Part shown: positions 22,342 through 23,943 of the stretch, in pieces | How positions within the stretch are numbered: the first letter of the stretch is position 1 | Layout of the letters: the number at the start of each line of letters is the position of its first letter | DNA from: an uncultured Verrucomicrobiota bacterium | GTDB taxonomy: Bacteria > Verrucomicrobiota > Verrucomicrobiia > Limisphaerales > UBA9464 | DNA length: 39,948 nt | NCBI GenBank assembly: GCA_903842505.1 | Contig: CAIMMI010000218.1 | Coordinates: 1 to 39,948 of the forward strand | Reading direction: 5' to 3' | Notes under the pieces: generated by a model | What the model was told of the DNA's origin: nothing | What the model saw: the letters and a program-made list of their open reading frames with translations, nothing else | Databases searched by the model: none | Made by a program: the position numbers and the translations under genes

Positions 22342-22851
22342 ATGGGCTGGCTAAAGCAGAGATCCACAGACGACCCGTTTGAAGCCCGTTCGCGGGAACT
22401 CGCGGATCAAATCCGCAAGCTGGAGAAGCAGATCGACCAACTTGCCCATACCCCACCCCCGGGCCCGGCCCCGACTCGTTCCAGGCCCCCTTCAAGACCC
22501 GTCTCGCCCAACCCATCGCCTGCGCCAACCCGGGCTCCCCAATCCCTGCCCCCGGCGCCAGCCCCAAGTCTTCCCCTCGCCTCGCCCACCACCGAAGCCG
22601 ATGGGCGAATCAATCCCCAAGGCCTCCGCAAGTTTGACCTGTCCTCCGTCTGGCGAAGGATCCGGGTCCACTTTCAGGGCCCAAACACCAACAATCCCCG
22701 GATGGTCCAGTACCTGGCCGCGGGATCCGTCCACGGACTTCGCCCCCTCCGGTACGAAAAACGGGTTGCCCGCAACCGGTTCATCGGCCTCTTCCTCCTG
22801 CTGGTCCTCATCCTGTTCGGCCTCGCCCGCGTCTACTTTCCCCAACGCTGA
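22342..22851 (+). CDS. proline-rich tail-anchored membrane protein
   Basis: 169 residues, 12 bases after the previous gene. Residues 10-36 form a short coiled coil (ARSRELADQIRKLEKQIDQL). Residues 37-85 are a Pro/Ser/Ala linker. Residues about 88-145 look like a conserved core: FDLSSVWRRIRVHFQGP, NNPRMVQYLAAGSVHGLRPL and RYEKRVARNRF. One membrane helix (about 147-162, FIGLFLLLVLILFGLA) ends the chain. No known family comes to mind. It has the same layout as its neighbour (coiled coil first, C-terminal anchor), so I infer the two work as a pair. Confidence 0.72.
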   Translation: MGWLKQRSTDDPFEARSRELADQIRKLEKQIDQLAHTPPPGPAPTRSRPPSRPVSPNPSPAPTRAPQSLPPAPAPSLPLASPTTEADGRINPQGLRKFDLSSVWRRIRVHFQGPNTNNPRMVQYLAAGSVHGLRPLRYEKRVARNRFIGLFLLLVLILFGLARVYFPQR

Positions 22852-22869: not shown

Positions 22870-22889
22870 TTTCGTTAACACTAACGAAA
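22870..22889. promoter_or_regulatory. perfect 20-bp palindrome, candidate operator
   Basis: TTTCGTTA-ACAC-TAACGAAA, 8-bp arms with a 4-base spacer, in AT-rich DNA that stands out from its GC-rich surroundings. It lies 19 bases after the stop of the upstream gene and 43 bases before a promoter-like -35 box. No U-run follows on the plus strand, so it is a poor terminator there; a dimeric regulator site is as likely. Confidence 0.4.
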
Positions 22890-22931: not shown

Positions 22932-22960
22932 TTGACTTACCCATCGCGCGTCCATAGCCT
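22932..22960 (+). promoter_or_regulatory. promoter-like pair before the candidate small RNA
   Basis: TTGACT (22932-22937), a 17-base spacer, and TAGCCT (22955-22960). The -35 is five of six to sigma-70 consensus; the -10 is weak, three of six. A transcript would begin near 22967. No protein gene follows on this strand before a strong terminator at 23033. Confidence 0.4.
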
Positions 22961-22966
22961 GCCATT

Positions 22967-23033
22967 GCAGTGAGGCTTTCGCCTCAGTTCCTCCTTCCCG
23001 GTGGCCGTTAAACGACGCCACCGGTCTTTTTTT
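22967..23033 (+). ncRNA. candidate small RNA with exposed CU-rich stretch
   Basis: About 67 nucleotides between a promoter-like pair and an intrinsic terminator, in a gap between convergent protein genes. Hairpin one is TGAGGC-TTTC-GCCTCA (22971-22986). A single-stranded stretch GTTCCTCCTTCC follows (22987-22997), complementary to an AAGGAGGA-type Shine-Dalgarno sequence. Hairpin two is CCGGTGGC with GCCACCGG (22998-23024) and leads into TCTTTTTTT. This layout (two stems flanking a C/U-rich seed) is common in trans-acting regulatory RNAs. I know no named family that fits. The 5' end is inferred, and the terminator alone could serve the upstream gene. Confidence 0.45.
22998..23033 (+). terminator. 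Rho-independent terminator
   Basis: An 8-bp perfect stem CCGGTGGC/GCCACCGG (22998-23005 and 23017-23024), with a small inner CGT/ACG pairing in the loop, then TCTTTTTTT. The U-run is only on the plus strand, so it ends plus-strand transcripts (the candidate small RNA, or read-through from 22851). Its tail meets the stop codon of the convergent miaA. Confidence 0.92.
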
Positions 23034-23943
23034 ACCTCAGTCGGCCTCGAAGCCCCATCGCGACCTCTTCCGCCGAGGTCCCGGCCTCCACCGAAACCCA
23101 CTCCAGATCCAACTGCTGACGAAACCAGGTCAACTGCCGCTTGGCGTACTGCCGGGTTCGCGCTTTTACCCATTCAACCGTCTCCCGCAACCCGCGCTCA
23201 CCCGCCAGATGTTCCATGACCTGGCGATACCCAATCGCCTGCGCCGCCGTCCGGTTCCCAGCCAACCCTTCCGGCAGCAATCGTCGGGTTTCGTCCACCA
23301 ACCCGGCGGCGAACATCCCGTCAACCCGATCCTCGATCCGCCGCACCAGCTCCTCCCGGGAACGCTCCAATCCAAAACTGCGGCCCGCCACCGCAGGCGC
23401 CCGATCAGGCCACGCAGCCCGCTGCACCGAAAACGGTTTCCCCGTCAACCGGATGACCTCCACCGCGCGCACGACCCTTCGCCGGTTTTGTACGTCAATC
23501 TCATCGAAGGTCTGCCAATCCCGACGCGCCAACTCATCCAGCAACACCGGTGTCGGCACGGCCTCCAACTCCGCCCGGAGCACCGGATCGGGTGGCGGAG
23601 CGTCCCCCAACCCATTCAGCCATGCATTGAGGTAGAGCCCGGTTCCGCCGCACAGGATCGGCACCTTGCCCCGTGCCTGGATCCCAGCCACCGCCTCCCC
23701 GGCCATCCGGACAAACCGCGCCGCATCGAATCCTTCCGTCAAATCCAGAACGTCAACCAGGTGATGCGGAACCCGTTCCCGCATCGCAGGGGTCGGCTTC
23801 GCTGTTCCCAGATCCAACCGGCGGTAGACCTGCATGGAATCCACCGAAACAACCTCCCCTCCGATCAACTCGGCCAGACACACGGCCACGTCGGACTTCC
23901 CCGAAGCCGTCGGACCCGCAATCAACACCGGGGAAAGGTTCAT
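23032..23943 (-). CDS. miaA: MiaA, tRNA dimethylallyltransferase
   Basis: 303 residues, the usual length. It transfers a dimethylallyl group to A37 of tRNAs that read codons beginning with U. The P-loop is AGPTASGKS (9-17). The catalytic and prenyl-binding block is VVSVDSMQVYRRLDLGTAKP with Asp35, and PHHLVDVLDLTEGFDAARFV follows. ILCGGTGLYLNAWLNGL and the insert DVQNRRRVVRAVEVIRLTGKP bind the anticodon loop. The C-terminal QAIGYRQVMEHL and RTRQYAKRQLTWF complete the family pattern. Its start overlaps the end of lspA by 4 bases, so lspA and miaA are coupled. Confidence 0.97.
   Translation of the reverse strand: MNLSPVLIAGPTASGKSDVAVCLAELIGGEVVSVDSMQVYRRLDLGTAKPTPAMRERVPHHLVDVLDLTEGFDAARFVRMAGEAVAGIQARGKVPILCGGTGLYLNAWLNGLGDAPPPDPVLRAELEAVPTPVLLDELARRDWQTFDEIDVQNRRRVVRAVEVIRLTGKPFSVQRAAWPDRAPAVAGRSFGLERSREELVRRIEDRVDGMFAAGLVDETRRLLPEGLAGNRTAAQAIGYRQVMEHLAGERGLRETVEWVKARTRQYAKRQLTWFRQQLDLEWVSVEAGTSAEEVAMGLRGRLR

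Follow-up and report, generated by a model that had tools for sequence, protein, structure and literature searches.

A predicted short RNA kept through the order Limisphaerales, a probable antisense repressor of an outer-membrane porin

The window analysed here is a stretch of 39,948 nucleotides from an uncultured Verrucomicrobiota bacterium, and its positions 22932 to 23033 raise the question of whether a short interval between two protein genes holds a small RNA (sRNA) gene and, if so, on what such an RNA would act. The first-pass annotation had read there a promoter-like pair, two hairpins and a strong terminator around 67 bases without a protein gene. All of these parts are found in place and homologues keep the same layout; the sRNA locus is a real observation. 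The length of about 67 nt also holds, save that the T-run of the sRNA touches the stop codon of miaA on the minus strand. The features of the locus are as follows.

22342 to 22851, plus strand: upstream flanking gene, hypothetical protein of 169 aa without a Pfam match (ORF, Pfam search)
22871 to 22888, plus strand: upstream box TTCGTTAACACTAACGAA, probable regulator site (CGTTA/TAACG enriched upstream of homologues)
22932 to 22937, plus strand: -35 hexamer TTGACT (sequence; promoter score in homologues)
22955 to 22960, plus strand: -10 hexamer TAGCCT, 17-nt spacer from the -35 hexamer (sequence; promoter score in homologues)
22967 to 23033, plus strand: sRNA gene, about 67 nt, matched by both covariance models; inferred to start 7 nt past the -10 hexamer and to end with the T-run
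22971 to 22986, plus strand: 5' hairpin TGAGGC-TTTC-GCCTCA (fold; both-side changes in 4 of 6 pairs)
22987 to 22997, plus strand: open stretch GTTCCTCCTTC between the hairpins (sequence, fold)
22987 to 22994, plus strand: seed GTTCCTCC, predicted single-stranded, complement GGAGGAAC (exact in 41 of 51 model-found loci)
22998 to 23024, plus strand: terminator hairpin, stem CCGGTGGC/GCCACCGG (both-side changes in 9 of 11 pairs)
23027 to 23033, plus strand: terminator T-run, seven T (sequence)
23032 to 23943, minus strand: downstream convergent miaA, IPP transferase (PF01715, E=8.3e-78)

The region 22962-23034 folds at -27.7 kcal/mol, against -15.1 +/- 2.7 kcal/mol for shuffled sequences (z -4.6; none of 200 as good). 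The promoter, with 8 of 12 matches, fell short of the cut-off of 9 in a simple consensus scan, which overlooked the sRNA terminator too. The Rfam 15 scan of the window returned only a tRNA above its gathering threshold, and when the window region and seven homologous loci were scanned by E-value, every match lay far below the gathering scores. Since the scan missed both ends and Rfam offered no match, the single sequence was inconclusive, and conservation had to decide whether the sRNA is real.

A BLASTN search of 58 genomes, the window's own included, turned up four copies within the genus (E<=3.7e-6), each judged by eye to adjoin miaA, and at E=0.235 one copy in another family that is visibly the same element beside other neighbour genes. 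A covariance model, R1, was built from the window and these five copies. Within the Limisphaerales (Verrucomicrobia subdivision 3), 196 genomes were searched with R1, and homologues appeared in 119 at E<=1e-5 and in 148 at E<=0.1; the 77 genomes without a match at the stricter level may reflect loss, divergence or genome incompleteness. A second model, R2, built from 33 sequences, matched 30 of 39 relatives at E<=1e-5, with a single strong copy in every one of them; six of the nine genomes of the window's genus are included. The window (22962-23033) scores 86.8 bits with R1 and 63.8 bits with R2, being a training sequence of both. Across 287 other genomes sampled from the phylum, R2 had no match at E<=1e-5, the best reaching 1.6e-5; with the window's own this sample numbers 288, those genomes whose kinship is shown belong to the same class or phylum outside the order, and the 233 matchless ones are unlisted. 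Twenty-two weak out-of-order matches were inspected, and none combines hairpin, seed and promoter. In three of the genomes outside the order (L069 in G329, L064 and L065 in G263 and G257), GTTCCTCC or GTTCCTCCTG stands beside hairpins without the 5' GAGG hairpin, which is probably chance.

Furthermore, the exact hairpin-and-seed pattern was found in 67 stretches of the genome_contigs collection (84,980 species), 66 of them records of metagenome-assembled genomes (MAGs). Sixty of these 66 bear verrucomicrobial titles, many of them 'subdivision 3', Limisphaerales or Pedosphaera, and six are titled only 'bacterium'; three titled Akkermansia or Methylacidimicrobium were taken as mislabels. It is from these titles, together with the taxonomy entry, that the name of the order is taken. 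The 67th match, in Caballeronia, lacks promoter and terminator and was set aside as chance. Literature searches, judged by title and the opening of the abstract, returned no description of such an RNA, though catalogues of candidate structured RNAs may hold a nameless entry. By its sequence, then, this is a short RNA kept through the order Limisphaerales and absent from Rfam 15.

The stems covary in the alignments. Among 33 sequences, both-side changes occur in 10 of 17 pairs, a count reached by 1 of 500 shuffles, and the covariation score is reached by none of 500. With 96 distinct rows, fitted to the model and including the Caballeronia row and several partial rows, such changes extend to 13 of 17 pairs (182 cells; 0 of 500 shuffles). 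Per-position conservation was taken from 88 distinct rows, after removal of 11 partial or chance rows. As the 67 pattern matches require the seed, its conservation was judged on the 51 model-found loci alone, where it is altered in ten; five of these ten carry C-to-T changes, with which G-U pairing to the target is still possible. Stems and seed are thus retained in relatives, on which the first-pass annotation had staked its reading. Its anti-Shine-Dalgarno seed between the hairpins stands as well, with the correction that the open stretch conserved across the order, GGUUCCUCC (in the window AGUUCCUCC), is longer than plain CCUCC. Of the general marks of an sRNA, covarying stems and a conserved unpaired seed are present, together with what appear from sequence evidence to be its own promoter and an intrinsic terminator. 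In four loci (L096, L122, L128 and L136) an extra 5' hairpin-like stretch, for instance CTTGAGGTTCTGCCTCGG, precedes the usual one, giving a lengthened variant of the RNA.

Candidate targets were sought through the seed, as the first-pass annotation had advised. The pattern GGAGGAACC-N1-8-ATG gave 125 matches in 18 genomes, against 49 for a reversed control pattern. Thirty of the 125 were inspected as loci and 40 more besides; most are not gene starts, and one gene recurs, with GGAGGAACC at its ribosome binding site (RBS) in five of the 18 genomes (G075, G105, G114, G134 and G154). It encodes a signal-peptide protein starting MKFNKWTLGLAA (or MKFNQWT), a porin of the BBP2 type (PF07642, with E=7.1e-50 for the protein of G214 and 2.8e-40 for that of G141). 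The porin gene lies 6.6 kb upstream of the sRNA in G075 and about 97 kb from it in G134, and on a different contig in G105, G114 and G154. Because of the short distance in G075, the corresponding sRNA flank was fetched in seven more genomes of g50 and 13 additional ones. Found by neighbourhood, with no seed requirement, the porins in five g50 stretches (G141, G162, G194, G204 and G214) all carry ACATCGGAGGAAC(C)AGATGAAG; the flank search found no porin in the other two g50 stretches, one of them just 6.8 kb long, nor in the 13 others. A profile HMM run over all fetched sequence added one more, in G129 (1.6 Mb, family f11), carrying AATCCGGAGGAACACATGAAG.

In all six porins found without the seed requirement, the RBS contains a perfect complement of 8 nt or more; three of the g50 porins and that of G129 match over 8 nt rather than 9. 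Altogether the site is conserved at the BBP2 porin RBS in 11 genomes of families f11, f22, f42 and f62, five of the eleven porins having been found through the seed itself. In the ten porins compared, the start region is near-invariant and the leader further upstream variable; since conservation extends beyond the site, part of it may serve translation. The porin leaders also hold a conserved hairpin-like element, GGGGCAAAC-CGGTTTTGCCCC, upstream of the start (alignment columns 22-68), which may act as another control element or as an upstream terminator. The RNA of the window's own genome retains the seed GTTCCTCC; in that genome six of 14 nine-mer sites were inspected, none a porin, and no porin was located. 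The most real-looking start among these six (L354, contig C35) belongs to a 66-aa protein with GGAGGAACCCGACATG at its start and no Pfam match, which by eye looks like a CcoQ-type oxidase subunit.

In nine genomes, each taken with its own seed and G114 being left out as its RNA was not fetched, predicted pairing energies between seed and porin range from -15.3 to -18.8 kcal/mol; among 1028 start regions the porin ranks 1, 15, 2, 15, 1, 1, 7, 7 and 7, and of 400 shuffled seeds no more than one equals the real one. The duplex in G129 comes only 54th of 1135, and five of 400 shuffled seeds equal it. In a G129 sample of 1134 ORFs, GGAGGAAC stands within 20 nt of any candidate start in just three, of which only the porin was judged a clear start. 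Predicted cofolds for G105, G134, G154 and G214 leave both sRNA hairpins intact with the seed paired to the porin RBS, and those for G075 and G162 open the 5' hairpin. In the porin mRNA folded alone, the mean unpaired probability at the site is predicted as 0.28 (G105), 0.35 (G154) and 0.56-0.81 in four others, highest in G162 and about half on average; the folding of the mRNA may thus hide the site. Moreover, the AAC(C) that follows GGAGG in the porin site fits the conserved (G)GUU of the sRNA and not the 16S tail. The pairing may extend further, across a bulged base, through GA in the sRNA and UC in the porin, which read GG and CC in G129 and so resemble a compensatory change; this extension is not relied on because it gains less than 1 kcal/mol.

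These observations are best accounted for by an Hfq-independent, trans-encoded antisense RNA that blocks translation of the porin, a reading we consider likely. The two hairpins would hold GGUUCCUCC open, and this stretch would pair perfectly with GGAGGAAC(C), just before the start codon of the BBP2 porin, Shine-Dalgarno sequence included. Since the pairing covers the Shine-Dalgarno sequence and ends 1-3 nt before the AUG, blocked initiation is to be expected, by analogy with NfeR1 (PMC10746234) and ChvR (PMC6237742). Pairing would exclude 30S subunits from the porin mRNA and lower porin synthesis without Hfq, so that the exposed stretch probably shuts off production of the porin whose RBS it matches. 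The Hfq-dependent class of sRNAs supposes Hfq in the organism, and a search for it (PF17209) was negative in all 29 relatives and positive in 5 of 14 control genomes, although a very divergent Hfq would escape it.

The host uses Shine-Dalgarno sequences sparingly, as the first-pass annotation had supposed. Of 272 genes (66 named loci, starts picked by a simple rule), 11 have a tetramer at -17 to -3, whereas a control distance gives 22. The 580 genes of G129 show a small excess: the 5-9 nt bin holds 64 tetramer sites, the other bins 23-38. In the five genomes of 18 where the pattern matched, the 16S tail is canonical. According to PMC10783764, Akkermansia is among some other Verrucomicrobia in which Shine-Dalgarno sequences are scarce and CCUCC is conserved. 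The suggestion that the RNA acts on the minority of genes possessing such a sequence agrees with the target search, which yielded the RBS of the porin as a predicted site. It is conceivable, albeit tentative, that in this setting an anti-Shine-Dalgarno seed is nearly gene-specific, the Shine-Dalgarno sequence of the porin serving mainly as a docking site shared by ribosome and sRNA, which would amount to single-target control without Hfq.

The seed does contain CCUCC like the 16S tail, and a global anti-Shine-Dalgarno RNA could in principle damp any mRNA with a Shine-Dalgarno sequence, the porin being one target of many. A few single nine-mer starts look real, before a CheC-like protein (L327), an ABC ATPase (L326), a CBS protein (L165) and the 66-aa protein of the window's genome. 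However, among the inspected sites only the porin recurs between genomes, and start regions show no clear enrichment of seed complements: with k=6, 24 were counted in G129 against 23.2 +/- 7.5 for shuffled seeds, and 16 in the named loci against 11.7 +/- 5.5. In the window 7 of 32 genes match (1.4 +/- 1.1 shuffled), and no matched six-mer contains GGAGG. Nor do two other candidate targets bear this reading out. The gene rpsU, which has an extended Shine-Dalgarno sequence, pairs no better with the real seed than with shuffled ones, attaining the 5% level in none of 12 genomes and ranking 6-85 of 302 by energy in ten; an 8-nt site at tuf in G129 is not conserved in 18 genomes. A global role is accordingly unlikely. 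The pattern AGGAGGAAC-N2-7-ATG gave 16 sites in eight g50 genomes, none judged a real start; it is unable to detect the porin, whose site is CGGAGGAAC.

Alternatively, the RNA may bind a protein, for instance as a decoy that draws off a ribosomal protein normally bound to the 16S tail, or some other regulator, the porin match being secondary. The sequence CCC(A/G)GTG of the terminator stem is conserved beyond need, which would suit this reading, as would the scarcity of Shine-Dalgarno sequences in an order whose rpsU (bS21) carries an extended one. In the rpsU loci of 18 genomes (L204-L223) it reads, for instance, GAAAGGAAGTGA, and 18 of 20 rpsU copies pair with the 16S tail at -14.6 to -20.2 kcal/mol, the exceptions being the second-type L219 and L223; start regions average -4.8 kcal/mol, with 3 of 302 below -13. 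This resembles the rpsU autoregulation of Bacteroidota described in PMC9976891, whose main text holds no occurrence of 'Verrucomicrobi'. Binding to a putative protein partner, however, leaves unexplained a complement of 8-9 nt at one conserved gene, which makes this explanation improbable.

The antisense RNA proposed here is also predicted to be transcribed on its own account. Of the 35 distinct model-found copies whose upstream sequence is long enough, 33 reach a promoter score of at least 8, as do 5 of 171 control windows; for pattern-found copies the figures are 52 of 54 and 14 of 267. Beyond the promoter, the 200 nt upstream contain CGTTA or TAACG in 78 of 87 distinct copies and in 31 of 409 control windows; near the sRNA the motif is often palindromic or directly repeated. 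This box is probably the site of a putative regulator that would set the timing of sRNA synthesis. Sought elsewhere as a sign of a regulon, GATAACGTTATC occurs at seven sites in 97 genomes, two of them upstream of the sRNA. The upstream gene points away from the sRNA in 55 of 88 copies; in 45 of 88 it comes from one uncharacterised family, divergent in all 45. Downstream lies a convergent MMPL-family gene in 57 of 88 distinct copies and a convergent miaA in 20 of 88. Many sRNA copies in f1, the family of the window, follow a small hypothetical gene.

Promoter, box and RNA stay together through differing neighbourhoods, and the sRNA is therefore read as an independent gene, with a sigma-70 type promoter and an intrinsic terminator of its own as judged from sequence. 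That it is mere terminator or 3' UTR of a neighbour with a chance likeness to an sRNA is scarcely credible: the window's promoter does begin 80 nt past the upstream gene (end at 22851), relatives of which lie before 10 of 88 copies, but the 5' hairpin and seed are conserved and the RNA, its promoter included, is found next to unrelated genes, many of them divergent, contrary to the doubt that the first-pass annotation had itself raised. As for the divergent upstream family (for instance L048, L052 and L269), its members are mostly about 460-540 aa long with repeated F/Y/W motifs; the first 300 aa of one member have no Pfam match, and by eye the family is possibly an outer-membrane barrel.

Masking the start region of major outer-membrane proteins by base-pairing RNAs is familiar from MicF, MicA and MicC of enterobacteria, which depend on Hfq and act on OmpF, OmpA and OmpC, respectively. 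The RNA proposed here would likewise mask the start of an outer-membrane protein mRNA by base pairing. Closer in manner are two Hfq-independent RNAs. NfeR1 of the rhizobial alpha-r14 family exposes unpaired anti-Shine-Dalgarno seeds to translation initiation regions, those of transporter mRNAs included (PMC10746234), as is proposed for the present RNA. However, NfeR1 is an alphaproteobacterial RNA of 123 nt with three hairpins, each with an unpaired CCUCCUCCC, a layout not found here, where about 67 nt hold two hairpins and the one seed GGUUCCUCC. ChvR of Caulobacter represses by base pairing a single outer-membrane mRNA, that of a TonB-dependent receptor, with a site close to the RBS (PMC6237742). 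It differs, by description and not by sequence comparison, in having two pairing sites and regulation by ChvGI, against one site and a putative regulator here. Both work like the proposed RNA, with no sign of kinship found (no Rfam match; a different layout in NfeR1). In Bacteroidota, rpsU is autoregulated through its extended Shine-Dalgarno sequence by ribosomes lacking bS21 (PMC9976891); there too a Shine-Dalgarno sequence is a regulatory signal in a lineage that hardly uses it, whereas here a small RNA would be the agent.

The finding would give a large, mostly uncultured order of Verrucomicrobiota, one where no Hfq was detected, an sRNA family whose target is concretely predicted. If the proposal is true, control of outer-membrane porins by RNAs that mask the RBS would extend to another phylum. 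Additionally, an anti-Shine-Dalgarno seed could then be specific where Shine-Dalgarno sequences are rare.
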